From positions 23,758,267 through 23,822,266 of the forward strand of contig OY540809.1 of assembly GCA_961205875.1 (NCBI GenBank): a DNA stretch of 64,000 nucleotides. The letters run 5' to 3'. This document shows, piece after piece, positions 10,017-62,749 of the stretch (position 1 is the stretch's first letter; the number at the start of each line of letters is the position of its first letter). The stretch comes from Sialis fuliginosa. Its lineage: Eukaryota; Arthropoda; Insecta; Megaloptera; Sialidae. Position numbers and translations under genes: made by a program. The notes under the pieces were generated by a model, which saw nothing but the letters and a program-made list of their open reading frames with translations, ran no database searches and was not told the DNA's origin.

Positions 10017-10772
10017 CTAATACCAATATGTTTTTGCTTCTGTCCGTTCTTCTTTAATACCCATTTCTTCTGCTACTTCCATTTCAAATGTAGCTAATGC
10101 AGGTTGAAATGTAACAGATGTTACTACATCTGCCACAGTATCTTTAACTGATTCTTTATATGAACCTTTTGTCTTATAATCATAAGTTTCTTCTGCCAAT
10201 TTCGGAATTGGTATAAGCCTACCTGTTCGTAAAGAAACCCTAACTCTATCACCTTCTTCTGTGTATCGCCACTCAACAGCTGTCGATTTCAAATCAGAAG
10301 GGTCAACTAGTGCTACTTGGTTTGTTACAAGCAAAGGAGCTTCCGATTTCATCATAATTCCTGGGAAGTCTTTCTCCTGGCCTACTTTACGTAAATGGCA
10401 GTTCAGACCCTCAACAATTACCCAATTTCGCTCTTGAATTATTTGCTTTACGATACCTTGTTTTCCTTTGTCTTTTCCAACTAAAATTTCAACCCGATCT
10501 CCTCTGAAGTAACTCCAATCTTTTATTGGTTCGATAAATACTTTCTTACGCAGTGTTCCGGGCATGTTCTGTTGCTTAAATTGTGCTGTCCACGGTCTAT
10601 TTGTTGTGAATCTAAATTTCTTTCTCTGAACAACCCTTGGTAAGTATTGCTGTCTAGATGGAGTCCTCCAGTATACTTGTTCCATGCTTCTTTTTATGTA
10701 TGATTCCGGTAAATTTGAAAATTGTTTTGTTAAATCGGCTACTTTACTGAATAATGACTGTCCCAGTCTCAT
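10017..10772 (-). CDS. mRpL24: Mitochondrial ribosomal protein L24 (uL24m)
   Basis: A single-exon gene of 251 aa for the large-subunit protein uL24m of the mitochondrial ribosome, which binds rRNA early in assembly. A KOW domain lies at about residues 91-124 (GDRVEILVGKDKGKQGIVKQ). The N-terminal stretch, basic and with few acidic residues (MRLGQSLFSKVADLTKQF), fits a mitochondrial import signal. The length matches animal orthologues (about 216-250 aa). The ATG at 10772 is the first in frame and lies 379 bp from the divergent MTAP start, so a shared bidirectional promoter is likely. A polyadenylation signal follows 24 bp after the stop. No frame damage or missing KOW residue is seen. Confidence 0.95.
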   Translation of the reverse strand: MRLGQSLFSKVADLTKQFSNLPESYIKRSMEQVYWRTPSRQQYLPRVVQRKKFRFTTNRPWTAQFKQQNMPGTLRKKVFIEPIKDWSYFRGDRVEILVGKDKGKQGIVKQIIQERNWVIVEGLNCHLRKVGQEKDFPGIMMKSEAPLLVTNQVALVDPSDLKSTAVEWRYTEEGDRVRVSLRTGRLIPIPKLAEETYDYKTKGSYKESVKDTVADVVTSVTFQPALATFEMEVAEEMGIKEERTEAKTYWY

Positions 10773-11151: not shown

Positions 11152-14100
11152 ATGGGTGATGCGTCCATAAAAATTAAAGTAAGAAACAAACTTGCTTATA
11201 ATATATGAAAATATAGTCATATCAAATTGAAATTTCTAGATAGGAATCATCGGTGGTTCTGGTTGTGATAATCCAGATCTTCTACAAAACAGAAATGAAA
11301 AATCCGTAGACACTCCTTTTGGAAAACCATCTGATGTACTCATTGAAGGTAAAATAAACAATGTCGACTGCGTTCTTCTTGCAAGACATGGACGTAATCA
11401 TACAATAATGCCAACAAACGTGAACTACCGTGCAAACATTTGGGCTCTAAAAGAGGTAGGGTGTACTCATCTAATTGTGTCCACAGCTACAGGTAGTTTG
11501 AGAGATAATATACAACCTGGCGATATCGTTATTCTCGACAACTTCATTGATAGAACTTCAAAACGTGCTCAAACTTTCTATGATGGAAATGAACATTCGC
11601 CTAAAGGAGTGTGCCACTTGCCCATGGAGCCTTGTTTCTGCCCAGAAACCCGTCAAGTGCTTATAGACACTGCTAATGAGCTCAAAATTAAAAACCACCC
11701 AACCGGGACATGCATCACAATAGAGGGTCCCAGGTTCTCAAGTAAAGCCGAGAGCCTCATGTACAGGGAGTGGGGTGGAGATGTTATCAATATGACCACA
11801 GTCCCAGAGGTAAGTGACTAAATTAATAATCTCAAAATATTCAGTGCTTTAAAATTATTTGCCTTTTAAAAACCAGCTAAAAAGCAAAAAATAAAATTTG
11901 GTTACTCTTTTTGTACTAAATATTACATTTAAAAAAAGTTGATTTTGTCTCTTCATACTAGAAGTGTTTAAAAAATGTCTCTTCTAGTATGAACAAAATC
12001 AACTTTTTTTAAATGCAATATTTATTTTCTGCTTTTTAGTCGGTTCTTAAAAGGCAAGTTATTTTTAAAAAAGTTTTATTTTTAGTTTTTAGTTATACAT
12101 ATACAAAGAAAAAAATTCAAAAAAGTTCATATAAATATACCTCCTGAATCTTTACCATCAAATAACCAATTTTAATTTCATTTTTATGTCAAGTTAATAA
12201 TGATCACATTACAAATATATTTTTTGCTGTAAATTAATTATCACTAAAGACTGTCAAACAGGAAGCGGACTGTCCGCGCGGACAGTATGCAGGCGGACAG
12301 TCCGCTGTCCGCCGCGGACTAAGGTGGTCAAACAGAACGCGCAAGTGACGGCGAACCAGTGCAAATTATTTCTTCATTTAGTGACCATCATGTCCAGCAG
12401 TTCGTCTGACGAAAAAGAATTACTTCTTTTCTTAGCTGTGAGTTCAGCAGCAAGACGAAAAAGGAAATGGGTATGCCATAGTCAATGTGCATAATGCAGG
12501 CATTCTATATAGTGACTAGGCATTCTACGTTTGAGAGGGTTGTTTCCCGAGCTAAATACTGAAGCGAAGTCATACAAACAACTGCACTACCGCACAAGAT
12601 CAATCAACTTTTCATCATTATCTTCTCTTTTACTCATTTTGGCATCATGTCCGCGCGCGAACTCTGTAAAAATTTACAACCTGTCCGCTGTCTGCGGCGG
12701 ACTGAATTTATCCGCCGCGGTAGTCCGCTTTCTGTTTGACCAGGGTAATGCAACATTACAGGATACAGAGTTTGCGACTGCCCGCGTGGACAGTCCGCCT
12801 CCTGTTTGGCAGAGCCTTAAAACACATTACGTATATATAATTAATATTTACTAATTTTAATACATTTAATTTTATTTATTTTGTTGTCTAATGTCGAGAA
12901 TAAAAAATATTTTCAATTGACAGTAATTATTAAAAAATGTAGCTATGTAAACGAAATATTTTGGTTGTAACTTAAGTCTCGCTGACAATGTGTTTTCAAA
13001 TTGTACTGGTACATACAGTGCGTTCACGATGAAAGGAACAAATTCGTTTAAAATTCAGGTAATTATTTTGTGGAAAAACGCTCGGACCCGTCGATTAGTA
13101 TTTTTAGTTGCGGATTTTTTGACATAAGAAAATTGTATACAGGGTGTCTCAGGAAAAATATATGCAGTCATCATTGATTTTTTTAAATGGAACACCCTAT
13201 ATATTATACCATTTTTGAATTGTGCGATAAATTCTGAACACTTTTTGTACAGCATATTATATCTCTAAAATCAGTGGTTTTCGGAATAATGACGTTTGAA
13301 AATTGACATTTTGAAATACACACAAGTCAAATAAAATGTTTAAATTGAACAAAAACACTTTGAACATTTTTTTAAAAGCCAACAAAAATAACCTGGTATT
13401 GCAAAAAAAAGAAAAAAAAAGAAAAGAAAAGAAGAAAAAAAAGGAAAAATAAAAGAAAAAAAAAGTTCAATGTTTTTTTTTTTTGGCATACCAGGATGTT
13501 TTTGCTGGCTTTTAAAAAATGTTCAAAGTGTTTTTGTTCAATTTAAACATTTTATTTGACTTGTGTGTATTTCAAAATGTCAATTTTCAAACGTCATTAT
13601 TCCGAAAACCACTGATTTTAGAGTCTTCCATTTAAAAAAATCAATGATGACTGCATATATTTTTCCTGAGACACCCTGTATACAATTTTCTTATGTCAAA
13701 AAATCCGCAACTAAAAATACTAATCGACGGGTCCGAGCGTTTTTCCACAAAATAATTACCTGAATTTTAAACGAATTTGTTCCTTTCATCGTGAACGCAC
13801 TGTATAGTTGATTCGTTACCACAAACATATAAATAAATAAATATCGCAGTGAGTTAAATAATGCAAATTTAAATTTTGGTAGGTTGTGCTTGCTAAGGAA
13901 GCGGGTCTCTGTTACGCGGCCGTTGCCATGGCAACCGACTATGACTGTTGGAAGTCAACAGGTGAACGCGTTTCTGTGGAACAGGTTCTAGAGACGTTCA
14001 AGAAAAACTGCACCAATGTCACACAGATACTCGTCGGAGCTGTAACCAAGATAGCGGGTCGAGATTGGACCAAAACAATCCAAGACTTAAAGGTTATAAT

Positions 14101-22591: not shown

Positions 22592-24432
22592 ATGGGTGGT
22601 TCAAATAGCGTTCCCATACCTGGTGGTGGTACAGAAGGTTATCACGTTCTGCGGGTATGAAAAATAATTATTATTTCAATTCTTTAACCTCATTTTTTTT
22701 ACTGTTCCTTTTTCAAATAGGTGCAAGAGAATTCGCCGGGTTTCGAGGCAGGTTTAGAAGCGTTTTTTGATTTTATTGTTGCCATAGGAAATACACGATT
22801 AGATCAAGATAACGAAACATTAAAAGAAATACTCCGAAATGGAATTGGTAATATTGTTGTTAATTGTTAATGTTAACAAAATATTAAATTCTTCTTGTTT
22901 TATTTCTAGATAAAAAACTCAAAATGACTGTTTATAATAGCAAAACTCAAAGTGTAAGAGAAGTTTCGATAACTCCTAGTAATTCATGGGGTGGACAAGG
23001 ATTATTAGGAGTTAGCATTAGGTTTTGTTCCTTTGAAGGTGCTAATGAGAATGTTTGGCATGTTCTGGTAAGTAAACAGTATTTAGAACTATGTCCAACC
23101 TCATCATCTATTTTATTTTAACTTTTCAGGAAGTCCATCCTTCGTCTCCAGCCGAACTAGCTGGTTTGAGACCTTTCACTGATTATATAATAGGAGCTGA
23201 TTCAGTTTTACATGATATAGAAGACCTATTTGCTTTAATAGAAGCCCATGAAGGCCGCGCTCTTAAGTTATATGTGTATAATACAACTGACGATGCTTGT
23301 AGAGAGGTGCGTATTTTAAATTTTTTATGTTTTCTTGTTATTGATGTAATTTTTATTTTCCAGGTGTCAATTACTCCTAATTTGTCTTGGGGTGGTGAAG
23401 GTAGCATAGGCTGTGGGATGGGCTATGGTTATCTGCACAGAATACCTATTAGAAACTCTCCAAGTGTACCACAACAGAATAAAATTGTAAGTTTCACTTA
23501 ACACTTGAGTAATTTATTTTAACAGTACATTCTACTTGATAATGAATAAGTAAATTCATTCAATTCGTAAAAAATGTATACACGATATGAAATATGTTAA
23601 AACAAATGGCAAACAAATATAGCCATTTTGAATAAAAAACTTGAAATTAATATATTCTTTCGATTCTCAGCAAAATAAAAATGAGATCTCAAAAAATAAA
23701 TGTTTATTTATTTCCTGCAAAATGCACTAAGTTTTAAATCATTTCCTGCAGTCATTTGTGAAATCAACTATCAATTTATAAATTTAAATATTTCAGACGC
23801 AGCAAGCTTCACAACCTCGTGCAACAGTCAGTGACTTGTTTGGAAGCCTGCCGCCTCCAGTAGTGTGCAGCTCCATTTCAACAGGGGCTGCAGCGCCTCC
23901 TCCCACACCTGTAACTCAAGACCATCCGAACGAGACAGCAGAATTCCCCACACCATCTCAACCATTTGAAACAAATACACTGATCCAACAACCATCAGAT
24001 TTACCCCAGCAAAGTGCACAATATTATGACCCAACTTCTGTGAACGTTCAGAAACCTACGTTAATCCAAGATTTGCCTCAGACAAATACACAATATTATG
24101 ACCAGAGTTCTGATCAGTTTTCGAGTAACTACCAAAACACGCCACAGTTTTCTACGGATACAAGACAGTATTCCCAGTTGCCCCACTTTGTCCCGAACAT
24201 CCCCGGCGCTTATATCCCCAGTTTACCGCAGCAGCCGATAACTACAGCTTCGGCCCCATACGTCCCACCTACACACATGCAGGGCGTCCCATTTACGACG
24301 CCAATCTCGTTACCGGGCTTGCCCCCCATTACGGTGAGCGCCACTCTGCCCCCAAGCACTTTTGAGGGGATGCAGACACAGGTTTCAGAGGCGCAATCTT
24401 CAGTACCATTCTCAGTTACGAGCCAGTATTGA
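22592..24432 (+). CDS. Grasp65: Golgi reassembly-stacking protein (GRASP55/65)
   Basis: A peripheral Golgi protein that tethers cisternae and assists unconventional secretion. Six exons: 22592-22654, 22721-22847, 22910-23067, 23130-23306, 23364-23486, 23797-24432; phases fit and give 427 aa. Gly2 in [20 protein letters not shown] is the family's myristoylation site. Two PDZ-like GRASP domains follow ([20 protein letters not shown] and [20 protein letters not shown]), with the conserved [13 protein letters not shown] at residues 191-203. The C-terminal ~210 residues, all in the last exon, are Pro/Gln/Ser/Thr-rich and presumably the phosphoregulated tail. There is only one GRASP here, as usual in insects. 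It looks intact. Confidence 0.96.
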
Positions 24433-45221: not shown

Positions 45222-45951
45222 CTATAGGAGGCATAAATTGGAGATAGTTGATAAAGAAAAACCATTGTTATACGTGTGAAATAAAGATCTTTATAAAAAA
45301 ATTAAATTAAACTTTTTTCAAAATTTGAAGACCAATGCCACTGACCTTTGAAGAAACAATTGGGTTGTTTTTGTTATGATTTCTGTATCAAGGCCGTAAC
45401 TAGAATCTTTCGTTTGTTCGGAGGCCCCTTATGCTCAGGTGCTCCAGCGGTAGTGATATTTATTATCTCCATTGATAAATAATAATTTTTAATATATCTT
45501 ACCATACATAAATAATACAATTATAAATGAGAAATAATTTTTATTGATATATTAATAAAATAGTACGATACAATATAAAATTACATCTATTTTATAAAGA
45601 TTAAGGCACCTCTGCTTCCGATAAGGCAATTAATAACTGTGACACAACACCACAAAATACACAGATAAAAATACAAATATTATAGCATTAAATGCCTCTA
45701 TTTATATTATCAATCTTACAATTTTCTTCACGTTTGTGCAAATAATATTTAATGGATGCAGAACATTGAAAATTGTAGAATAAATGGATTTTTCTGTAAT
45801 AATTAAATATGTATATAAATATGTTTAATATACTTTTTATTAGTTTTTCAGACAGCAAGAGTTTCATAATGATATAATCAAGATATCTGTATGATATCAG
45901 TCTGAGAATATTTACTGTCCGAGTTTACATAGAATTTTAAAGGCACTTTTA
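45222..45951. other. Syb 3' flank with a hAT MITE fragment
   Basis: 45389-45462 resembles the 115-bp hAT MITEs at 54185 and 54347 (GGCCGTAACTAGAA...TTCGTTTGTTCGGAGGCCCC). The remainder is AT-rich 3' flank of Syb. Confidence 0.45.
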
Positions 45952-46803
45952 TTAGGGCTTAGGTGTTGAAGCAATTGCTGGAGTTTTAGAATCACCAGAG
46001 AAGTCTGACGCAATGGACACTGAAAAATAATACAACACATTTTTTGAGAAATAAGGGCAATATTAACTATCATTAAAATTATATATAACTTTTTTTTTTA
46101 ATTTGAAATCTCTACATTCAAATTTTTTTGCTGATTGAAATTTTGTGAACTCTATAAGGATGTATTTAATAGTTTCAGCTTCAAAATGTTTCTTTTTTAG
46201 TTTTTATATACGATTTTTCCCCAGTTATTTGACATTAAAAAAATGCATATTTAATTAAGAGAAGACTTCAAGCACTTCATACATTTATTAATTACGATTT
46301 TTTTTTAGATGTTAAATAATGGTGAAAAACTCGGAAGTGAACAAGGATTAGATATAACGTTTAACTAAAAATATATAAAATAACTTACAAAATGATAAAA
46401 ATATATATACTGCTTACCAATTATAATAATGAGAATAACTGCACCAATAACGCCCAGAACGATCATCATCTTGATATTCTTCCACCACATTTTTCGTTTG
46501 AGTTGTGTTGCGTGTTTTTCAAACTGACTCGCCCCTGCTTGCAACGCATCAGCTCGGTTATCAAGCTCACTGAGTTTTTGATCACGTTCTAATACCTAAA
46601 ATATACAAACTCAATTCATATTGCACGTAAAAGTTTATGTAATAATCATTAATTGATAAAGTTATTAATGTACTTACTTTTTCAACATTTACTCGCATAA
46701 TACCCACAACTTCGTCAACTTGTTGTTGCGTTTGCTTGATACGATTATTTGAAAGGTTTGGAGCATTCCCTTGGGAGGTATTGGGTCCATTTCCACCATC
46801 CAT
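45952..46803 (-). CDS. Syb: Synaptobrevin/VAMP, ubiquitous type
   Basis: A vesicle R-SNARE for membrane fusion. Three coding exons: 46803-46678, 46595-46418, 46019-45952, 123 aa. The SNARE motif starts [17 protein letters not shown] and continues [19 protein letters not shown], with the zero-layer Arg in LERDQ; then the linker [10 protein letters not shown] and a C-terminal anchor [17 protein letters not shown], ending in a short tail [18 protein letters not shown] 5' UTR exon is likely (donor AC|GTAAGT near 46934; acceptor TTGTTAAG just before 46830). The start is the first ATG (MDGGNGPN). It lies head to head with nSyb. Only the last intron position (phase 1, within the anchor end) is shared with nSyb; the others differ. 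Confidence 0.93.
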
Positions 46804-48561
46804 ATTTAGTGTTTGTGTTGAATCACTTAACAATAAAACATATGTTTTATTGGAGTTAAGATTATGTACTTATCTTTTTTATCATAAATAATTTTTATTG
46901 TGAGTAAAATACGTAATGATAAAATGTACTTACGTTTAAAAAAAGAAAAAGATGGATGGATGTTTCAAAATTAACTGAAATGAATAATTAGAAAATGTCA
47001 ACGAAAGAAATAATAAATTAATATAAAATATTTTGCGGTGAATGACAAAACTACATATCGTCGGCCATTTACTGAAGTTCCAACTTGGAGTTGTCAACTT
47101 TTAAGTGTTGTTCTAACTTTGTTTAACGCGAACAAAAGCGTTTGACAGTGAGAAAGACGGACTGTGAGTATTACAGGAACTATCGTTAAAAGTTCGTCAA
47201 TTTACTCACAGATGGCCTTACTGATAATTATGTAAATACAATTTAAAAAAACAATTATGGACTATGTACTAATTATTCTAATAAACTCCCTGTAATACCT
47301 TGTATGTTTACATTTTCAGATAAAAAATGTCTGCATTAAAAAATTATAATTTTATTTAGATTGAACCAATAAATATTTCCAAGAAATTATTGAAATGACG
47401 AAATTCCATTGTTGATGACATTAAAATTTAATTTAATGGTTTTTGTAAATATAAAAAAAATAATACAGTATGTACATATATTCGATTAAATAAAACGGTT
47501 TCAAATGTAACGGAAACACATTTATATTAATTTTAATTAATAACTCATATCCGTTTTTTTTATATAAAAAATATTGGTTCTAGTTTTTTAGTACAAGCTA
47601 CCCCCATCGATGTTAAATGTCAATGGCGCTGTAATCAATGAATTCAGGTCCGTACTACGAATATTTTCTGATACAATTTATTGAATATGTCTTATAAAAG
47701 AGTCAAATTATTTATGTATTACTACAAGCACTTTGAAATATTATTATTATTTGAATTTGAGTTTCTAGGTGTAAGCCATGGCATTTTGTTTGTTTTCACA
47801 ATCAATTCTTCGTCACATTGCAATGGACTTAAAGACCCCCGAAAGAATGCACTACTATTAAACTATTAAATAATATATCCAGCAACTTATTGATCATCTG
47901 TATGCATTGATAGTGATTAATCACCCCAAGACAGAGCAGTATTAAAATGAAAATAGAGAACAAAAAATGCTTAAATATTTCCTAAGGCGATTTGTCTTAT
48001 TGACACATTCTTCCAATAGTATCCAGTGACTTGCGGATCATTTGTGCGACTTCACCACAGCGATTTATGAATCTTCCAATTTCAAACTACCTACAGATAG
48101 AGCAGTTTTAAAACAAAATATACAAAAAAATGTTTAAACTGTACGATTCATTTCATGATGTCTAAGGACTTTCAGATCTCATATACACTCCCCTCAGAGC
48201 GGCGTCGCGGCGCGCTAAAAATGACGTCACAGAACATCAATACTTGTGTTCACTACACCCGTGCTATAGGGCCGAGAATCTTCCACTCGTTAAGGGAAAT
48301 ATCACAGTGTGAAAAATATAACTATATAATAATAAATACTTATAACAAATGTAAGTGTGATTTCAAGTTAACAGACCCCTAAATATATCCCCGGTGTTCC
48401 CCGGTTGTTAATAGTTATTGTGGCTATCGATTCGACAAGAAAACGAGGTCTTTTTTGCGTAGGATTTACTGTGTGAATTATCGGAAAATCGGGTTCATTT
48501 TAATAAAATTTTTTTTGGGTGTTGGTTCATTTATTTTTGTGTGATTTGTTGAAAACAGAAA
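46804..48561. promoter_or_regulatory. Region between divergent Syb and nSyb
   Basis: 1.76 kb between the two starts. It includes a Syb 5' UTR exon near 46935-47100 and, toward nSyb, a GC-rich patch at 48192-48217 followed by TGACGTCA (48222-48229), a CRE-type palindrome. Promoters for both SNARE genes are expected here. No other gene is recognised. Confidence 0.45.
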
Positions 48562-51500
48562 ATGTATGTATTTCTTGATATTTTATATTAATTTACGTAT
48601 GTATGGATATATATATGTATATAAATATCTCCATATACATATGTATATATCTATACATATTAATTCAGATATTGACATTTAAAGTATTGTTATCCTTACT
48701 ATATTATAATTAATTTTTATCCAATTATTTGATGAGTCATTTTTACATAATACACTTATAGTTTTATATCAGAATATATATTAAAATATAGTTTGAAAAT
48801 TGTATTAATTGATTAAAAATTTTACTGTAATATAAATACATTTACATACCTTTTTAGTGCACCTTTAAAGTTACTATCATTTTTTTTAAATAAAAATAGT
48901 TTCATTCAAAATTTAAGACCAAATTTTGATAAAAATAAAAGTAAATCTATTGTTCAACTATTTTTTTGTATACATTTAAAATACCGACAATTTTTCTTAC
49001 CTCTTTTTAGAATTAGACCTATATAGGCACTATAACGTAAATTATATATGTAAATATTAATAAATTTATTCATTACAATATAAGTAATATATTGATTTCA
49101 TTAATGTAGGTATATGAACCAAAAATTATTTTAATGAAAACCATTGTTCCATATTAAGCATATAATAATTTTTAACAATTTAGAACAGGTTTATAGATTG
49201 AGGTTTAAGAAATAAAACCGAAATAAAAATGTATTTTTTAATATATATAAATATATACATGTGTGATTTAGGGCGGCTCCAAATCCTGGTGATAACTTGG
49301 ACCCGTCATCGGCCCAGGGTGGCGATGGGAGCATTGTGGGGGGGCCCAGGACGCCCCAGCAAGTGGCCGCCCAACGAAGATTGCAGCAGACGCAAGCGCA
49401 GGTACAAAAACACGTTCAATATATTTAAACCAAAAAAAAAAATGAAAATTTAATTTGCTAATGACATAATTTAAAAAAAAATCGATGACAATTCCTTAAA
49501 ATTTAATAAAATTAAAAATTTTACGAACAAAAATTTCCTTGGTGCTTCATCCGCGAGTATTTCAAAATCGGTACATTTTCGCGTGACTAGCTTTTCTAAA
49601 ACCGAATCACATCTACACCGACAGTAATGATGGTTTAATTAAATTAACAACTATCATTGCATTTTTATGGTTACATAGCCAACTAGGAACCCTAATGGTT
49701 TCGGTCTGTCCCTCTGTCTGTTTGTATGATACAGCCTTCCCATTCTCTCATTTATATACCTATTAGATGAAATTTGGTATACGGATGATCTAAAAACAGA
49801 AATGATGAGATTTTTGAAATACATTTTTTTGGATTCCCCTCACAAAGACTGAAAAGTGTACACTTAGCCCATTGAGTGGGGTTTCTTTAAATAGGTCTCC
49901 TAAAATGCAACAAAAAATGTATTAGGACCTTTTGATTTTAACCCTTCGGTTACGAGATATTTGCTATCAAAATCATTATCAAAGCGTCCCCTCTCTCTAA
50001 TTTCGAAACTGTCGACGTAAAAAGTCTGAAAAAATTCCAAAATATAACTTTTGATTAGTACTTTCAATGAAAGTTATAACAAACATTGAAGCAAAAATAG
50101 TTTAAGATAAATTTAGAAATAACTATTTTTTATAAATCGTCACACGAAGATGTACACTTTATAGATATTACTTTTTACGTCAAAATGAAAGTAGATAATG
50201 TCAGTTAAAGAGAAAGCTAGTGAGAACGGCTACGGAACCCTATCACGTGCGTGCCGAAAATGCACTTGGCCGATTTTTTTTACATATCTACGTTCTTCAT
50301 GTATTTTTATAAGAATAAGTTAATTGTAAATTAATACTCGCCTGACCTAATTACTAAACATAAATTGGTTTACAACTATCTGATTATTTTCATTTTTATA
50401 TTTTTTGATTAGAAAATATCAATTGTTCATTGTATTTAATACGGGCCTGTCTTAAATCAATTATAAAACATAAACTATTCTAGTAAATTAGGCTGATTTA
50501 AAGGTAAAAGTCCCATCGAAATCGGTTCAGTCTTTATCGTGTTAAATAAAAACAAACAGACGGACACAAATTCTAAAAACTATCAAAATGAACTATGTAT
50601 ATATAGTTTGTAAAACGATGTTGACTCAAAAAACTTAAAAAATTACATTGTATTACAGACACAGCTAGCGAAATTATTCGAATTTAAGGCTCAATGAAAG
50701 CTCTAATAATATTTATAATTTTCTATTAAACGTATTTGCTATATTTTTCATATATTTCTTATACTAGAAAATATATGAGCTGTTATTATGGAAAGTCGTA
50801 TAAGTCCATAAGGTACTGGCACCAGTCTTGAATCATGATTATTCATTGATATTTGATTACTACCATTACTGAATCATAATCTATAGACACTGAACTGTAA
50901 AACAGCTTAATTTGATGACAATCGGCCGATGGGTATCAAAATGGTGGACATTTAAATTAATACTGTTAGTGTAATATACATTTATTAATTATTATATTTA
51001 ATATAATGATAATATAACATATTATCATATTACATTACTTCAAAATTTACGATTCTTTATTTTATAACATTTGTGTCGTAGTACTTATCATTTTATAATC
51101 ATTAGCAAGTATCCATTACTGGTTTTATTTTTTCCATTACTGGAGAAAAAACATTAACAAAATAAAAGGCTATAATTAAAAAAAAAAAAATATTTGCGGA
51201 CTTTGGTATACATATACATACATATATACTTAAATTGATTTAATAAAGAGATGCGCATTATCCCAAAAAACTGTATATTTTTCTCTTAGAAGGATTAAGG
51301 CTGGTGGCAGTACTTTTACATATTATTTATTTGTATTTACTAATTACATACGAAAGTATTCATTCATATATATTTTATATAATTCCTTTACTACTCACAC
51401 CACTACGGGGGGGGGGGGAGGTTTAGGCCTGCCTGCCCCCCTTAGTTATCCCACTTTCAGTATATAGTTTACCTTTTATCTTTTATCTGATTGTAATAAA

Positions 51501-54500
51501 ATAACGCCATATTTTCAAGGTGGACGAAGTCGTGGATATCATGAAAACGAATGTCGAAAAAGTACTGGAGAGAGATCAGAAATTGAGTGAACTTGACGAT
51601 AGAGCAGGTGATTATACAGTTACACTTATAAAATCGAATGTATATAAGTTGAACCTTAGATACCCTATGTACTATGGGCTTCAGAAGTCGTCTGCTACCC
51701 TAAAGGTCAGAATCGCTTACAACAGATTCGCAAATATTAAGACAAACATCATTGGTTATCTTTTTTCTAGGACGGAGCTTATATAGTTACATCATTTTAA
51801 ATAAAATACAAATATACTTCCATTTCATTAATTAATTTTATATCAAGTTTAACACATTTAAATACTAAAATTCGGAATATCAAATATTTATAGCCACAAA
51901 ATTTATTTAAGTATACAATTTTCAATAGATTGAAATGAAAACTGGTCGACCACTTCTGTATGCGACTCTACCTATTATCACTTGACAAGAAAATTCAAAA
52001 TAAATTTTTTCATGTCCTAATTTTTGGGGATGGGTCCACTTATAGGCGTTCTACTATAATGTTTTATTTATTTTTAGCTAGATTAATAGACATAGGTACA
52101 TGGACTGCGTATTCTGTATTAACATAACGTGCAAAATTTGGTTCACAAAAGTGAAGATTTAGATATAACCCAAACAAAACTCTATCATAAGAGCTAACTT
52201 TTCGGGCTGCTGTCCATGTTGTCGTATTATGTTTCTTGACGTTTCGACTCTCATGTTGGAGTCTTCTTCTTCTTATTCTTTTGAAACAGTTTCAGAAACA
52301 CTTCTGAAGAAGACTCCAACATTAGAGTCGAAACGTCATGTTAAATAATACGACAACGTGGACAACAGCCTAAAAAGTTAGCTCTTATAAACAATGGCCA
52401 CGAAAGCCTACAAAAGAAAAATACTCATCATTTTCACTCATGTTTAAGTAAAGACAAAAATAATCTAAAATACGGTCTATTATTTTTTTTGTGAAGATTA
52501 GATTTTCGAATCACAGTTCATGCTCTGTATCTATGGCTAGACTAATTATTGAAAATATATGTGTTTTATGAGTTTAATTCCTCCGAAATCCTAATATTAA
52601 TATATGTATTTAAAATGTCTATTGCCAAAGCGGGCTATTGGGATATAGACAGAAAAAAATAGAATATTTTGTGAATTTTATTTTATTTACAATCGCAAGC
52701 CTCATAAAGTATCATAATATCTGCTGTCACGACAGTTATTGTACCTGTTTATACCTATGTTGCGTTTTTGTGGCATACTACGTATAAGAACTAGATATTA
52801 GAGAACGTCTGAGCAGAAATTTGTTACGGCAAACCGGAATACAGTCAGGGCCGGATCAGGCTCTATTACGGAGAGCCCTATTCAGGCATACAGATGTGAA
52901 CCTGATCAGGTTCTGATAAGGAATGACCTATTAGGGCATTCCCGATCAGGTTCGGATAAGGAGAATTGTATTTCAACCCTCTTAATGCATTCTATGTCTT
53001 AACTCATCCAGCCCTGATACGATTAACCGTATTAAGGTATTCCATGTTTTAACTTATCCGGGCCTGATATGGTTGCCTGATTTTGACCATATTAAGGCAT
53101 TCCTTGTTTGAATTTACCCGGGCCTAATATGGTTGCCTGATTTTGACCATATTAAGGCATTCCATGCTTGATATAACAGTGGAAAAAATTACGTATACCT
53201 GATTGATCGGGACTCCCCCCCCCCCCCCCCCCCCGATGTTTTTTTTTAATTTAGTAACTTGATCAGGCACGTATAGAACTGACCGATCAGGGCCGGATTT
53301 GATTAATCAGTTCAGAGTCGGATCCGGCCAGCCCTAGTCATGATAAGGTCCAGATCAGGAAAACCTGATCCTGTACGGATGCGAACAGGCGTTACATTTT
53401 GTATCCGGTTCGGATCAGGTTTAGGGTTGGCCGGATCCGACCCGGACTCCAGCCTTAACAAATTTCTGCTCGGGACCTTGGAATATTTATTCTGCCTAGA
53501 TACTGTGACGGCGGCATAACAAAATTGTTCTCACTATTGCGACATTGAATGTCATGACGTTAGTGTCGCGACATTAATGTTACCGTCAGAACAAGGTTTT
53601 AACTTAAACAATCGATTCATACACATATGTATATAAATATTTACTTTTACAAATAGCTGAACAATTGTGTATTACTTGTTATTATTATTTATTTATTTTC
53701 ATGCAGATGCTCTTCAACAAGGTGCGTCTCAATTTGAACAACAAGCGGGTAAACTAAAGCGAAAATTTTGGCTACAAAACTTAAAGGTAATGTAAATTTT
53801 TACTATTGACATTTTTATATAAACATTGTTAAAATGATGATAAAGTAGTTTTTCTATGCCACGAAAAAAAGAACCGAAACGCCGTTCTACCGTGTTACAT
53901 GACAAAAAAATTCTGCAAATTACTATTTGAAAAATATATAATCTACAAGTTTTATTTAAAATTTTTTTTATTCAATTACAAACCACATCAGAAATATTCC
54001 GATAATCTTAAAAATTACGAGACTGATAACAATTGAAAGCCTTTTTTACTGTTTAAATATATATAAATATGTATTTTTAAATGGTTTTGGTTATAAATTA
54101 ATTTCTATGTCAACTGAATGTTGTTCAAATACACATACATACCTATCTCCCTAATTTATGTTTTTTTATGTTTTACCTTTTTAACAGGGCTGTAACTAGA
54201 AACTCTGAAGCCCCGGGACAACAAGTGATCAAGGGGTTCTTTATTTCCCCACTTTCGTTTGTTCGAAGGCCCCTTATGATCGGGAACCCCGGGGCACTGC
54301 TTTTTAACCTAACCTAATTTATATTTGTCATGTTTTACCTTTTTAACAGGGTCGTAACTAATGGCTCTGAGGCCCCGGGACAACAAGTGATCAAGGGGCC
54401 CTTTATCTCATCAATTTCGTTTGTTCGAAGGCCCTTTATGATCGGGGGCCCCGGGGCACTGTTTTTTAACTGTATAAGTATATAGACTTATCACTCATAG

Positions 54501-57500
54501 TTTTCATTATAGAGCTCGATTCAGGGACCCTTAAACTCAAATGCGTATTTTTTTCGAAACCTTGAGTTTGAATTGAGTATGATATTTTATCATACATTAT
54601 TTATAAAAATTAAAAACAAATTTTTTGGGAAAAAAAATAATTTACCCTAAAAAAATGAGCTAGATAGTTCGAATTGACACTAATTTCGCTTGTTTATTTT
54701 TTCAGATGATGATCATAATGGGAGTAATTGGACTTGTTATTTTGGCTATTATAGTCAGTGAGTATACTTAGTTAATAATCATACTTTATATATATCTTTG
54801 TCTCCATATATGTACTTTCACACCGCGGAGTCGGGAACACAGTAAAAACAATATAAAATCACTACGTTTAGACAAATAGGTACCGTGTAAGATATATTGG
54901 CACTTATATGTAGCACTATACATAAATAACCGCATAAAATTCACATTAGCAGGGTTACAGTCACTAAGCACACTATTATAGACATTTAAAGCCCTTTTTG
55001 CAACATCAAAAAATTTAATAAAATATACCTTTTTAAATAAAATAAGTGTGCATAGGATATTTTATAATGTTAAATAAGTAAAATATATTTTATACTCAAT
55101 TTTAAATATATAAAACACTTTCAATTGAAACTTTCTACAGATCGATAAAATAATAAATATAGACTATTTATTTATTTTTTTAATATCAAAAATACAAATT
55201 TCTGGGAAAATATCAATTTAATTAATTAAAGATACAACAATATTCCTTATTATTGTAATTTGTAACTGACAATTCAAATATATAGTCTATATTTTCAAAT
55301 ATAACAATTAAAACCTGTTAGGTTGGTATTACATGTATATAACTTCACTATCTATAACAAAGGTTGTGTTTTTCTTTTTTGCAGTGAATTTTATGTAAAT
55401 TCGGACCAAGTTACGCTATATTATTATTATTTAAAATCAAGAAAACGGCAATTTTATTAAATAATTTAAATAAGAGCGTTTTTAATATCTGAAAACGGTA
55501 ATTCAAACAAAATTGATAGTTTATGTGGCCTTTTTTAGACAATGTCCATGTATTCTGGCTGAAATAATCGTGTTTTTTTTTTTCTTAAAATCGGTGTTGA
55601 AAATTCCCTCAGTCCGTATTCATATATACCTATATGTAGTTGATTATACACAAAAATTGAATTGTTTTAGTGTATAATAACTTTATAATCACTATATATA
55701 ATGTGAATAAAAAGTAAAGAACTAAATCTATTCTACACATATTTAAAATCAATTTAATTTGTATATTAGTCAACACAATAAAAAAATTACCTCCATTTTA
55801 TCTTTCATAAATAAATATTTGAATCAATAATATTGACAATCATTTAAATATAAACTTCCTTTGATTGAATTAAAAATATATTTAAAATCAATAAATCTAA
55901 CTTTTTCATAATATTTTAGATGAAATTGATTATATTATATTATAGCATGGTAACTTAATAAAATATGACAATTAAAAATATCGATTATCATATTACCTAC
56001 CTCATTTTTAATCTATGAATACGAACTATAAATTCTATGTAGACGTCAATAGAAGATACATTTCTATCCCTCTCTTGTACATATCAAAGTCTGTCTTTCT
56101 CTGTCCTTTGAGCTCATATTATATTTGATGTTTATCAAACACTTGCAATTGCTATGCACTTGTTTTCATTTTGTTTTTGAGACATGTTTTCTTTTTGTTT
56201 AGAATTTTTCATTAGTTTCAGCATGAAAATGTTATCATAAAATGCATGAAAACGTAATTATATTCTTGATGTTGTAGTTTAATAAATGGAAATGAAATTT
56301 AAATGAAAAATCGGTTATATAATTCAACAATGGAATATTTGAAAACCGTAACATTTTTTCATTTAATTTTAATCCACATGTTTTGAACTGTGTAACTGTT
56401 ATCTGTGTGTATCTTTTTAAATAATTTCATTTAAAGCAATGTGAACTAGTAATTAAATTGTTTACTTTATTTAGATTTCTTTCAAAAGTCATGTTTTGTT
56501 AGATGCATTTTCCATTGCTTTAAATCGAACTTAAGTATTACGTTAGGTGTTATTTAGTACTGTTTAAAACCTAGTTGATCTAAATTTTGATTTGTTGAAT
56601 AATTGAGCAACATTTCTCTTTCAGCTTCGACATAAATATATAGCCATCTATTGAAACAAAAATCGGTCAGACATTGGCATACCGAAAAATTGTATATCTT
56701 AAATGAAAATAATAATAATTTTTTAAAAACTATACTGCTTCTAACAACTTTTAGCTAGCAACGTCTATATACATATATATATATATATAATATATATATG
56801 CATAATATATATATTGTTGTTATTATATTCATAAATGCGAAAGAATGAAACAGCCATCTTCAGAGCGACTATTAAAAATAACACCAAATACTCTTAAACC
56901 TAGTGCCCTCCCAAAAAGCTGGCGAAAAAAAGATGAGCGCACCTTGAAGATAGCAAATTATTCCTATATAATTATTTCTTGTAAAATACGTAAATTTATG
57001 TTTATATGAAGAGTGATAGAGATTTTTTCGAATAAAAGAGGGCGTAAAGATCAATTTACACGGGTTAATTTTGGCCAAATAATTTTATTTGATAAATTTA
57101 ACCGTGTGAATTGGCTTTTTTAGGTTAAACCATGTTATTGGTGGCATTCATTATCAATATAAGGTCAGTTTTTCTCGGACTAGTTTTGAGTGAATTGACC
57201 TGTGTGAATTGGTCTTTTTAGAATAGAAAATGCAGTTTAGTTAAAATAATGGCACGAGTTTATTTTGAGCAAATCACTTTATTTGACTAAATAGGCCCGT
57301 GCTAACTGACCATTTTAGTTGTCAAATTTCATCGAATATAAAATTATAAAATATGTAGAAAATTTTGTCATATTAGTGTTAACTATTAGATCTTTTCGAG
57401 TCTCTATCGGACTTTATATAACTATATAGAATATACATTTCTTGCATTCGTATTATTTTCTTATAGAGGATGCAAGAAATGTATAGATCAATTTAAAAGC

Positions 57501-59971
57501 TGGTAGCAATTTTGATTTATTTTTAAATTTTAAATATACATAATATATTTTAAACGGCTATTAAAAAATATGTATTTAAAATGTAGGGACTTATCAAAAT
57601 ATTATATAAAGTTTGAGTGTGTGTAAAATTATATGTTAGAAAAAAATGATACAAAACACATGTAACTTGCAATATCATGAAATACACCCACTGTATATAG
57701 ACAGAAACAATTTTTGACAGTTATTACCACTCCGTACCCCGTTTTTATTTTTCTATCATCGAAAGGTAAACCTAAATATCTACAATATACTTATATAACA
57801 TTTATTGCCCTCAAATGAACAAGTATTGATAAAATATTATTATAAATAACAAAAACAGTAAACTAATTGTTGTATTTTTTGTTTTAAATGTTGTTGTTTA
57901 TGATCGAATTAATGTATTTTTGTTAGTGTAGTTAAATTGGTTTTAAAAAGTACAAATAATTTTAAAATATTGGTATACGGCCATCTTAGAAAAGACAGAA
58001 TTTGACGGTTTTTAACGAAAACTTGAAAACAAATGGTTTACTGTAAATTTAAATAAATTTTGCAGTATTTTTGACTTGATTTTATTTTAAATTCAATATT
58101 TTGCTTCATTTGTTGGCAGTTTTTAGCATGTCACAGTTAACACAGGTTCTATTCAGTTCCAAGTTTTATATGCATGACGTTTATAGACCACTAGTCTTCA
58201 AAATTTTTGCAATTAAAATTAATATATTATGCACTGTTGTAAAAGCATTTTTAAATCATTAAAATTATTTGGAAACTATTGGTCTAATCCATTTCCACTT
58301 AACAGCCATGCGTTAACAAACATTAATTCACTTACACTTAGAAAGACAGACACAAATATACGAATCATAAACTAAAAAATATTGTACCTCTTCTATACCA
58401 AAATTTTATTTTCGTTATTTTCATTTCACAATTACAGATATACACATCTGTTGGAACATTTTCTTGATTTTTAATGACTGTACTATACAAACTTCCAAAA
58501 CGGATGAATGAAATATTTATGGATATATTGAAACAATATAATAAACATTATATAAACAAAACAGGCGATGTTTATCGATAATTAATGCATTAATATAAAT
58601 TTTGTAATTTAGAACGTCATTGTCGTCATTTGAAATTTGTTTGACAACAATTTTTTAAAAACATGTTGGCAGTTGGCAGTCATTAACAGTGAAGTTGATA
58701 ACATAAGGTTCTATTACATAGAATTACATTTTTAATATTAATTATTTTACGTAATTCAACCTTTAAAAATTATGTAAAATAAATTAAAGTAAAGGAATTC
58801 ATATAAGAATTGATGATATGATTAAATTGATAAATTTTAAATATTTATTAAAGTTAATAAAATAAATCTAACGTTTTATTAAACAGTAAAGTCATAGATT
58901 GTATTGTAATATAGAATTAGATATTTTTAGTATACTATCTATGCCTTTAAATGTTTATATATTTATTATTTAATCAAAAATAATAGTTTTTTAATTTTGT
59001 TTATATTTTTGGCAAATAATTTTGATTCTAGTAGTTATATATAAATATAATAATTTTTATTTAAAAAAGTGTATAATAAAACTCTTGTAATATTAAAATT
59101 AAAACATTCATAGTTTACAATTGTATAGCGTGTTATAAAATTTTGAAATTGGATATACATAATGAAATATTCTAAAATGTAAAAAATAATTAAATAAATT
59201 CAGTAATGATTTAGAAAAAATATATATAGATTAATTTGAAAATTTGAAAATACATATCTAATAATATTGCTAGTATTATAGAGGAGTTCTGTATATAATA
59301 AAAATACAATACTTACTTTAATTTGCAATCTTGATTAACAAATGGTTATATTTCAAAATTTAAAAAATATAATATTATTAGTACAATTGACAATAAAAAT
59401 ATGATGTTATTATAATTGAAATATGAGTATCAAATATTAAAAAAAAGTTAATTAATTATTATCTATTAATCTGTAATAGTTTTTTTTTTATACACCAATA
59501 ACAGAAAATATTGAAGTATAGACAAATTATTTAAATTTATAATTATTGCATAGATAATATATACATCTTTAATCAATAATATGAAATATATTATTTTCTT
59601 AAAAGTTAAAATCAATCTAACATACAAACTTAGATTTTTCAATTGTTTGCTAAGATTATTTAATTTAAATCTCAACAATGACATTTGAAACCCACCCCTT
59701 TGTTCATACTTCAGTATTACAACCACCAAACAAAATAAATATATTACACGAGAACATAACTGCACAAATTTCCCTAAAACACTACCACATTGATGCACCC
59801 ACAGTGAAGTTTATGCCGGAAAGTCCACCGCAAGCCCCTGCGATGCCGTACCCACCTGTCGTGATGCAACAACCCCCTGCAGCAGGGGGTGTGGCACCCC
59901 CGGCTGGGCCCCAAACCGCGCCTGCAGCCCTACGCCTCACAGACCTCTTTGGAAGCGTCAAAGCAGTTTAG
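48562..59971 (+). CDS. nSyb: Neuronal synaptobrevin (R-SNARE) with alternative last exons
   Basis: A vesicle SNARE driving neurotransmitter release. Coding exons: 48562-48563 (only AT of the start codon), 49272-49401, 51520-51607, 53707-53786, 54706-54757, then either 55385-55398 (121 aa) or 59805-59971 (172 aa). The N-terminus is [16 protein letters not shown], a variable Gly/Pro part; the SNARE motif follows ([40 protein letters not shown]) with the zero-layer Arg, linker [13 protein letters not shown] and anchor [17 protein letters not shown]. The exon borders QAQ|VDEVV and NLK|MMII are those I know from animal VAMP genes. Phases fit for both endings. Long AT-rich introns hold several MITEs. 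Confidence 0.93.
49681..50290 (+). repeat. Dispersed repeat with GGAACCCTA ends
   Basis: Begins near CTAGGAACCCTAATGG with a CTGTCTGTTTG tract and ends near TACGGAACCCTATC...GCACTTGGCCGATTTT, phrases typical of an insect (mainly lepidopteran) repeat. Inverted fragments occur at 2651-2896 and 4346-4510. Class not determined. Confidence 0.5.
50809..50935. mobile_element. Partial MITE related to 20684-20946
   Basis: Starts TAAGGTACTGGCACCAGTCTTG and shares CGATTGTCATCAAATTAAGC (complement) with the MITE in the THAP relic. Only one end is clear. Confidence 0.5.
52185..52390. mobile_element. Palindromic MITE in nSyb intron 3
   Basis: A ~205-bp palindrome with outer arms ATAAGAGCTAACTTTT / complement and inner arms GAAGACTCCAACATTAGAGT. 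A TTCTTCTTCTT tract lies at the centre. No gene. Confidence 0.65.
52809..53473. mobile_element. MITE with internal 60-bp minisatellite and poly-C
   Basis: Inverted ends CTGAGCAGAAATTTGTTA and TAACAAATTTCTGCTCGG. Inside, a ~60-bp unit containing GGCCTGATATGGTTGCCTG and CATATTAAGGCATTCC recurs two to three times (about 53030-53170), then a run of more than 20 C (53212-53234). Many GATCAGG motifs in both orientations fill the rest. Confidence 0.6.
54185..54299. mobile_element. 115-bp hAT MITE, copy a
   Basis: CAGGGCTGTAACTAG ... CCCCGGGGCACTG with the perfect 8-bp flank CTTTTTAA on both sides (54177-54184, 54300-54307). Confidence 0.75.
54347..54461. mobile_element. 115-bp hAT MITE, copy b
   Basis: CAGGGTCGTAACTAA ... 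CCCCGGGGCACTG, flanked by CTTTTTAA and TTTTTTAA. Together with ~45 bp of matching left flank it forms a ~162-bp tandem duplication with copy a. Confidence 0.75.
55385..55398 (+). CDS. nSyb: nSyb short-tail terminal exon
   Basis: Acceptor TTTTTTGCAG then TGAATTTTATGTAA. Joined to exon 54706-54757 (ending GTC A) it gives MNFM and a stop directly after the membrane anchor. The acceptor has a strong pyrimidine tract. The first 10 bases resemble the start of the long exon (TGAAGTTTATG), which suggests an exon duplication or conserved anchor end. Confidence 0.75.
55399..59804. other. nSyb sequence between the two last exons
   Basis: 4.4 kb of strongly AT-rich DNA: 3' UTR of the short isoform and intron for the long one. 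Contains a TATATATA tract near 56765-56815 and weak inverted matches around 57050-57310 (CCGTGTGAATTGGCTTTTTT). No further exon was recognised. Confidence 0.45.
59805..59971 (+). CDS. nSyb: nSyb long proline-rich terminal exon
   Basis: Acceptor CACCCACAG, phase 2 start, 167 nt. Joined to exon 54706-54757 it gives [20 protein letters not shown] followed by [20 protein letters not shown] and a tail [16 protein letters not shown] content is far above the surrounding intron. In the fly, n-Syb isoforms also carry a Pro/Gln-rich C-terminal extension after the anchor, so the exon is probably real and used. The tail would face the vesicle lumen. The sequence upstream of 59805 in the same frame is intron. 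Confidence 0.8.
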
Positions 59972-61430
59972 ATCCGACACCAATAACGTACAGAATACAT
60001 TCGTTATCATTTTACGTATTATAAATAATATTCTAACGAATTTGTTGATCTGTAAGTTTTCCAACTATAATGGCCTATTTTGGATAAAAGCGAAGGCCTT
60101 AAAATACGAAAATAATACGGTTACCATATCTAACGTGGTGGTTCCCTTTAAAGACCGGTAGATGGCAGTGCAATCCCTAGAAAATAGTATTGCAGCACAA
60201 AAAAACGAAAACTATTAAATCATTATACCATAATATATTAATCTACTATACTTTACTTTATTTAATAATGCAGTGGTTGCCGTGGTTTTTGACGGTAAAA
60301 TGCACGATTCGTACCGTCAAATTCCCGCAACCACTGCATTCTTAAATGAAATAGAGTATAGTTGATTAATATATGGTTATACTTTATACAACTAGTAATT
60401 TTTATCATTTTTGAATTTTAAAGTTGTTGTTTTTCATATTAGTATCGCCCCACCTATCGATTTATAAAGGAAATTATTACTTTATCGTATATGGTGACTA
60501 ATAATAATATATGATAATAGATATCGTGTGCGATTTGGTTGGGAACCACTGGAATAATTAAAAAGGTTAAAAATATGTAAATTGGCTCTAATATTTGTTT
60601 AAATAGGAATTCTGAAATAAAAAATTTAGAACAATTAATAATTTTCTTTAGATAATTAGATATCAAATTAATTTTTGAAGTTACGTGGAAGAATAGAAGA
60701 AAATCAACTTTTTGTGATGAATATATGAATAAACTTAATTTTAATAAAATGGCTCGATTCATTCAATATTTAAATGAAATTTCATATTTAGCCTTCTTTA
60801 CCGTGTATTATGGTTCTGATACACAACTCACTTTATTTGGAATAAGATCAGTTTTAAAATATTTATATGTACCCCAGATAAAAATAATTTATTCATTTTA
60901 TTAAATTATAATTAAAAATATATAAATAGCTTACCTTTAAGTACATAAATACATTAGAATTATAATGTTATCTATATATAATCATTTAGAAAAGAATTTA
61001 ATACTGATTTTATTCCTGAGTATACATACACATATAACAATAAAATAATACAGGATTATTATTAAATGTATGTAAATTTAAATTGCATAATACCACATAC
61101 ATATTATATAAATAATCATTACAATTTAGGTGTATATACAAGTATTTAAATTTAAAATGAAATGTAACAATACACATAGCACCAACTCAATAATTGTTGG
61201 TATGATTATTAATTATATCATATTTAGAGAATATGATCACTTTTAGAACATAGAATTTGCTATTTTCTATTATATTTAATGTGTATAAAATATTATTATT
61301 TATTGCTCTGTGTTAGTTATTGCAGAATAAATGTATTTATGTTTATATTGTTTTTGTAATTTTCTTTATCCCTAACGTCCCTAGATTTTCGAGTATCAAA
61401 GATATAAGTTGGTATCGTAGAGATATATGG
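59972..61430. other. nSyb 3' region, AT-rich
   Basis: 3' UTR of the long nSyb isoform followed by AT-rich DNA. Holds the palindromic element 60229-60375. No gene is seen. Confidence 0.4.
60229..60375. mobile_element. 147-bp palindromic MITE with CATATATTAA-type ends
   Basis: Arms from CATAATATATTAATCTACTA inward, including GCAGTGGTTGC and complement GCAACCACTGC, around a ~12-bp loop. Flanks ATTATAC (left) and GTTATAC (right) agree at 6 of 7 bases. Same end type as at 4660, 19668 and 45181. Confidence 0.65.
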
Positions 61431-61438
61431 TTGGTACT

Positions 61439-62180
61439 CAGGGCCGGATTAAGCAAGCGCGGGGCCCGTAGCAAATGTTATAAAGAGGCCCTTGGTAGTG
61501 GCGTCGGGGGGGGGGGGAACTCGGGGAGTAAATCGATTTCTCCACCCACTCCCCCCGAAAAAAGTCAATAGGATTTTTTTTGCACATTAAGCGGGCGTCA
61601 CACCGCTGACTGACTTGATTTAGAATATACAATCCTTAAAAAAATTGATAAGTTAATAAAAAATTCAGGGGGTATTTTTTTGAACCCTTTTAACCCTTGG
61701 CAAAGAACAGAAAGTGATGATAAAATTTGTTTAAATTTTTATTCAAAAATTAGAAAGCACAAACTTTTAAATGTGCTTTGGAACACGTAAATTAAATTAA
61801 TTTTTGCGGAAATATAACTGTTTGAAAATTTGAATTTTTTGTTTTGCTTTTTTTTTAATTATCCTTTAATTTTTTTGAGGTGTGTATAATAAAACACCAC
61901 TTTTACAAACAAAATTTTCTTGATTTGAGCAAATTTAGAAAAATCGATTAAAAAAATCAAAGATTGGAGCTTCAAAAATCGATTTTTCGATTAAATCGAA
62001 TCGAGATCGGAAACCCTAAATTTAAATTATTAATTATTGTAGATTTGGACACCCCGTATCAACCATTGGACGGTAAGTGGTAAGTCCAATAAGAGATATT
62101 TTTCCGCGAAAGTCGCGGGGCCCCAGAGACGCGGGGCCCGTAGCATTTGCTACTCCTGCTACGTTGTTAATCCGGCCCTG
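61439..62180. mobile_element. hAT-type element with perfect 8-bp duplication
   Basis: 742 bp, ends CAGGGCCGGATTAAGC and TTAATCCGGCCCTG, flanked by TTGGTACT on both sides (61431-61438, 62181-62188). A sister of 30165-31345 without the nested MITE. No transposase frame. Confidence 0.9.
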
Positions 62181-62256
62181 TTGGTACTAAGCATAGACTT
62201 ATAGAATAGACTACATCGACTATCAAGGTTAGTAAATGTCAAGGTTAGTATATGTA

Positions 62257-62749
62257 TAGGTTGCCTCATAACTTTTTGACCAATCAACGGCTGCGTGTGA
62301 TGACGTCACCCTGAGGAACCTTTAAACGTTGTTTCATATATTAAGTTTTTTTTCAAATTATTTCGAATTTTTGGATATTTGTATTAAAAAAAAGTAAATA
62401 TTATTGTTTATTACAGAAGCACAAATTATTACATATAATATTTCTTGATAAAAACTTTAAAATGATGTCAGAAATCAATGCTTAAAGAAAATACATTTCT
62501 TGGTTACACATAAAAAAACACTTGTTTAAAACTATAATTTATAATAATAAAATAATAAAAATTTAGATTTAAAACTCAGTACACTATCGATATCAAATGA
62601 AAATATTTAAAAACAACTTACAATAAATCAGCTTAACTAAAATAAAGAGTAAATATAGTTTGACAGCCATTTATAATGTCAAAGAGTTCCTCACGATGAC
62701 GCGTTCTCCCCTCTCATGCCACTCCCCGCCAGAGTTATGAGGCAACCTA
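62257..62749. mobile_element. MITE with AGGTTGCCTCATAACT ends
   Basis: About 493 bp with inverted ends TAGGTTGCCTCATAACT and AGTTATGAGGCAACCTA. It carries CCAAT (62280) and TGACGTCA (62301-62308). A partial relative begins at 62775 (TAGGTTGCCTCC). No coding frame. Confidence 0.6.

Follow-up and report, generated by a model that had tools for sequence, protein, structure and literature searches.

Does the nSyb gene of Sialis fuliginosa end its protein in one way or in two? A sequence-only reading of 64,000 nucleotides of this genome (hereafter, the window; contig 1, positions 23758267-23822266, of a 392 Mb genome in 20 contigs) proposed that the exon encoding the membrane anchor can be joined to either of two last exons. 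We consider it probable, at roughly 77%, that the transmembrane exon of nSyb is followed by two mutually exclusive last exons, which would yield either a 121-residue form or a form with a 55-residue tail. It is important to separate this reading from the question of where the long exon begins, and from any role of the two tails in the vesicle, as our confidence in these points differs.

The nSyb gene

The window contains, on its + strand, a synaptobrevin gene with four exons that have GT/AG borders and compatible phases. Its parts up to the anchor are as follows.

48562..48563, + strand: probable end of nSyb exon 1; the start codon is split between AT and G, followed by the donor GTATGT
49272..49401, + strand: nSyb exon 2, N-terminus and start of the SNARE motif (tblastn and splice sites; weak acceptor, score -1.19)
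51520..51607, + strand: nSyb exon 3, SNARE motif (splice sites and tblastn)
53707..53786, + strand: nSyb exon 4, end of the SNARE motif (GT/AG borders)
54706..54757, + strand: nSyb exon 5, transmembrane anchor (phase 1 end, donor GTGAGT)

The end of exon 1 was placed where it is because exon 2 needs two upstream bases in order to read ATG GCG GCT. The anchor exon is preceded by ...TTTTTTCAG, and its last bases, GTCA, stand directly before the donor.

The assignment of this gene to nSyb, made in the sequence-only reading, is borne out. The gene matches the Pfam Synaptobrevin family (PF00957) with E 6e-32, and the short and long products score 109.7 and 108.9 bits, respectively, against a cut-off of 26.4, so that both have the SNARE motif and the anchor. 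A provisional fly nSyb query is 93% and 94% identical to exons 3 and 4, versus 75% for the neighboring paralogue, Syb; the first exons of nSyb and Syb are 57% and 58% identical to the same query. In an alignment of the long product with this provisional fly protein, the SNARE motif is nearly unchanged. A search of the whole genome gave nine matches to the synaptobrevin family, three of them in the window (Syb, and exons 3 and 4 of nSyb), and among eight loci compared by tblastn with the window's protein, those of Syb and nSyb are by far the most nSyb-like.

Upstream of the presumed end of exon 1, at 48222-48229, lies the palindrome TGACGTCA, which we take to be CRE-like; the motif occurs six times in the window.

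Two candidate last exons

As had been claimed, the phase-1 end of the anchor exon can be joined in frame to 55385 or to 59805, with GT/AG splice signals at both junctions. As far as sequence signals go, this is the fly-type arrangement, i.e., a single anchor donor followed by two exons that are in phase and have splice signals.

55385..55398, + strand: short last exon up to its stop codon, with MNFM and TAA at 55396-55398 (best acceptor of 293)
59805..59971, + strand: long last exon up to its stop codon, with a 55-residue tail and TAG at 59969-59971

The acceptor at 55385 is preceded by TTTTTTGCAG, and its exon opens with TGAATTTTATGTAA; the resulting product has 121 residues and ends ...VILAIIVMNFM. 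The acceptor at 59805, 4.4 kb away, is preceded by CACCCACAG, its exon opens with TGAAGTTTATGCCGG, and the product has 172 residues.

We scored the 293 AGs from 54790 to 62500 using approximate acceptor and donor matrices, and inspected the best 25 by score and the 25 with the longest tails. The acceptor at 55385 ranks first, with a score of 6.9. That at 59805 has no T-rich tract and ranks 16th (1.90), outscored by fifteen AGs that include 59715 and 58120, and it still beats two of the four upstream nSyb acceptors (-1.19, 0.44, 4.33 and 4.71). The donor of the anchor exon scores 1.72, and the other nSyb donors range from 0.83 to 4.8.

The near identity of the two exon starts, also part of the earlier description, withstands comparison with the rest of the window. 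The starts agree at 10 of 11 bases, and among the 5675 11-mers that follow an AG on either strand of the window, only 59805 itself and 55385 match TGAAGTTTATG at 10/11 or better; the next best downstream AG, at 58690, matches at 9/11. In interpreting this result, it must be considered that the pair of exons was possibly chosen for the likeness of their starts; independently of this, 55385 is the top-scoring acceptor. The related claim that the end of the anchor is preserved whichever exon is used is nearly correct, but the second residue of the tail differs (MNFM versus MKFM), a neutral Asn being replaced by a charged Lys.

It might be supposed that the long form is the only regular product and that 55385 marks a rarely used cryptic exon in the last intron. 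The coding part of the short exon is just 14 bases, which leaves coding evidence nearly nil, and the fly nSyb protein is a long-tailed form. Against this speak an acceptor that tops all 293 AGs, a start that matches that of the long exon and an overlap with a 20-base stretch common to the Syb gene (see below), and we consider this explanation improbable.

The tail of the long form

The long exon stands out by composition, as the earlier reading stated: its G+C content is 62%, versus 21% and 31% in the flanking 500 bases. The tail had been described as rich in Pro, Ala and Gln. This is right for Pro (13 of 55 residues) and Ala (10 of 55) but not for Gln; with only 4 Gln among the 55 residues, the tail is better described as rich in the first two.

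Tail length alone is no evidence for an exon, since 8 of the 293 downstream AGs give phase-1 tails of at least 55 residues, and when the long exon is shuffled by a Markov model, 760 of 3000 shuffles stay open over 53 codons. The G+C-rich stretch also has a second open frame. These observations are what one would cite in favor of the idea that nSyb has the short form only and that 59805-59971 is an unrelated G+C-rich island, open by chance. We compared the tail with that of fly nSyb, for which the provisional sequence was used in all tail comparisons. The coding frame scores 54, while the other five frames score 19 to 33, and a score of 54 is reached by 2 of 3000 Markov shuffles of the exon's DNA. 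When protein sequences are shuffled with their composition kept, the score is reached in about 2% of cases (109/5000 with the fly tail shuffled and 83/5000 with the window's tail shuffled). The suggestion that fly n-Syb has a comparable tail draws support from the frame control and, to a lesser degree, from the protein shuffles, with a fly sequence that is provisional. This frame-specific likeness, the exon start in common with 55385 and a search of the window with the exon, which up to E 1 gave nothing beyond the exon itself and two short self-matches, all argue against a chance island, which we regard as very improbable. A search of the PDB with the tail alone gave no matches up to E 1, and among 260 + 22 pattern-matching stretches in collections of prokaryote and virus contigs none was confirmed as a relative, as expected there.

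The start of the long exon is less certain. The acceptor at 59805 that was originally named is credible, but another start is possible in the same open frame, which extends back to a stop at 59666.

59715..59804, + strand: stretch by which the long exon may extend upstream, if another acceptor in the same phase is used (85-residue tail)

If the exon is real but starts at 59715, its first part would be AT-rich and the likeness of the exon starts would be incidental. At 2.67, the acceptor at 59715 scores slightly above that at 59805 (1.90). The alternative C-terminus of the fly protein likewise has 85 residues according to a figure legend (PMC6025963), which may be a coincidence. However, the 10/11 match of exon starts exists for 59805 only, and G+C content rises from 34% in the additional 90 bases to 62% in the exon proper; for these two reasons, we prefer 59805. 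The alignment with the provisional fly tail, moreover, has no need of the added residues. We consider a start at 59715 unlikely, although it is the strongest competitor to our reading of the last exons.

Some other acceptors were set aside. That at 58120 (3.05) leads to a mostly hydrophobic 47-residue tail without a Pro/Ala bias; it was set aside on composition only and is a candidate for a further terminal-exon acceptor. Acceptors 56625, 56203, 56222, 58306 and 62417 score above many others, but their tails are short, and 59943 and 59886 lie inside the long exon.

The precedent in fly n-Syb

Up to residue 121, fly nSyb presumably reads ...VVVGIIA, and this sequence aligns with ...VILAIIV, the last residues encoded before the junction in S. 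fuliginosa. In Drosophila, the n-Syb exon of variant J is predicted to lead to a 206-residue protein with an alternative C-terminus. LNv clock neurons use this exon in 85% of their n-Syb transcripts, versus 25-36% in LNd, DN1 and TH neurons (PMC6025963; eLife 2018, 10.7554/eLife.35618). In the same report, the alternative stretch is given as "85 bp" in the text and as 85 amino acids in a figure legend. Subtracting the legend's 85 from 206 puts the fly switch after residue 121, a position that depends on the legend, as the text gives 85 bp instead (PMC6025963). The switch point in S. fuliginosa may thus be homologous to that of the fly: the two agree at residue 121 if the legend's 85 amino acids and the provisional fly sequence are taken as the basis.

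Like variant J, the proposed exons would alter the C-terminus of nSyb, and the long tail is similar in make-up to the provisional fly tail. Because an alternative n-Syb C-terminus has been published for Drosophila (PMC6025963), the idea of two tails is less new than the sequence-only reading implied. The passages on variant J differ in that they describe an alternative 85-residue C-terminus and no nearly tail-less form, and it is in Drosophila only that use by cell type has been measured (PMC6025963). This was the one report of an alternative n-Syb C-terminus among the literature matches listed; subscription papers fell mostly outside these matches, and a tail-less insect nSyb may already be in print. 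A search of PMC6162566 gave no passage on the nSyb C-terminus. Splicing of human VAMP7 is treated in PMC3123573. The kind of switch is thus known, and what appears special here is that one of the two forms has a tail while the other has next to none.

A possible switch between the two tails

As a property of the sequence, the two-tail layout is confirmed: the gene, the phase, the splice signals and the like exon starts are all in place. That cells produce both mRNAs and regulate which one is made, and that the tail acts on the vesicle lumen or the fusion pore, is our inference. The mechanism we propose is as follows. Splicing to 55385 with polyadenylation nearby would give the 121-residue protein, which would end about where vertebrate VAMP2 ends. 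If the short exon is instead skipped and the weaker acceptor at 59805 is used, the same v-SNARE would carry a 55-residue luminal tail rich in Pro and Ala. Use of the proximal terminal exon would compete with its skipping, under the control of RNA-binding proteins, and in the long form the Lys just behind the anchor and the long tail could act on the vesicle lumen or the fusion pore. A strong proximal acceptor with a weaker distal one suggests that the choice may be regulated by cell type, by analogy with fly n-Syb.

Candidate polyadenylation signals lie behind both stops. The first AATAAA behind the short stop is at 55706 (308 bases on), and the variant ATTAAA is found already at 55456; behind the long stop, the first ATTAAA is at 60214 and the first AATAAA at 60616. 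Such hexamers carry little weight, because they are frequent throughout this AT-rich stretch. One further feature, which along with the acceptor pair and the hexamers behind the short stop would fit such a competition, lies between that stop and its first AATAAA.

55573..55583, + strand: run of 11 T, a possible regulatory site

Luminal residues in vertebrate VAMPs

The short product aligns with VAMP2 up to residue 120 of its 121, and VAMP2 (2kog_A, 119 residues) ends two residues further. The short form is like VAMP2 (synaptobrevin 2; PDB 2kog, 3hd7) in its SNARE motif and anchor and in ending at nearly the same residue; VAMP2, unlike the long form here, is without a long luminal tail. VAMP-1B, a splice isoform of vertebrate VAMP1, is reported to be mitochondrial, with a C-terminal positive charge involved (PMC4592070, PMC2659752 and PMC9964399; Isenmann 1998 as a cited reference). 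It resembles the present case as a v-SNARE splice isoform with a different C-terminal region, and differs in its reported mitochondrial location and C-terminal charge, one of the options here being a long Pro/Ala-rich tail.

According to a review, a single charged residue appended at the luminal end of Syb2 is enough to inhibit fusion, a result for which Ngatchou 2010 is cited, whereas exocytosis is supported by Syb2 joined to a pH-sensitive GFP via a flexible linker (PMC5641348). By analogy with the former observation, the change from Asn to Lys behind the anchor may matter for fusion. Given both observations, the effect of the long tail on fusion is unpredictable. If both forms are made, one and the same v-SNARE could be compared in nature with a luminal tail and lacking one, and C-terminal switching of nSyb would extend beyond Drosophila. 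Such a comparison would bear on whether residues behind the anchor restrain the fusion pore, on which PMC5641348 cites engineered additions to Syb2.

A 20-base stretch common to nSyb and Syb

The paralogue Syb (- strand) and nSyb (+ strand, 48562-59971) lie head-to-head, with start codons about 1.8 kb apart. The Drosophila genes Syb and nSyb are on different chromosomes. A stretch of 20 bases near the end of the short form of nSyb recurs behind Syb.

45952..46803, - strand: coding span of Syb, with exons 46803-46678, 46595-46418 and 46019-45952
55387..55406, + strand: nSyb copy of the 20-base stretch, overlapping the last coding bases of the short exon and the first of its UTR (18/20 identical to the Syb copy)
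45917..45936, - strand: Syb copy, AATTCTATGTAAACTCGGAC, 15 bases beyond the stop codon of Syb

When this match was compared locally with Markov shuffles, 5 of 3000 equalled it. The window holds no third copy with up to four mismatches, and a degenerate pattern built from both copies found these two only in the 392 Mb genome, versus 0 for a reversed control.

Conceivably, the stretch is an element of the 3' end that has been conserved in both duplicates. A more specific proposal is that it is an RNA element kept since the duplication, which would govern the choice of terminal exon or the use of 3' ends, such that neurons switch between a tail-less, VAMP2-like SNARE and a tailed one; we regard this as speculative and, on balance, doubtful. 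Judged by eye, the two bases that differ between the copies are third codon positions in a frame that encodes FYVNSD, but no credible donor leads into this frame in nSyb. A phase-2 donor at 54761, with which the stretch would be read (again by eye) as EFYVNSD in nSyb, versus KFYVNSD in Syb, was discarded with a score of -6.4.

We also looked for a second last exon in Syb. There are 147 AGs in the 3.5 kb considered, and among those that were best by pyrimidine count or retained by a simple filter several have open tails, none outstanding. The likeness of the Syb tail to a provisional fly Syb tail is not significant (1377/5000 shuffles).

Other features of the window

Rfam at gathering thresholds gave no matches in the window, and in a Pfam scan of six window translations two had no match. 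Two similar open frames on the - strand, at 8498-8962 and 6296-6655, resemble the transposase DDE_Tnp_4; the frame at 8498-8962 was the one included in the Pfam scan, and it matched this family (E 6.5e-25). A ribosomal L24-like gene of the mitochondrial 39S type lies at 10017-10772 (- strand), an exon of the phosphorylase superfamily (PNP_UDP_1) at 11408-11821 (+ strand), and a GRASP55/65 exon at 23091-23501 (+ strand). Just behind the long exon, at 60233-60374, is an inverted repeat with 48-base arms that are 90% complementary and 46 bases apart, which looks like a small foldback (MITE-like) element.
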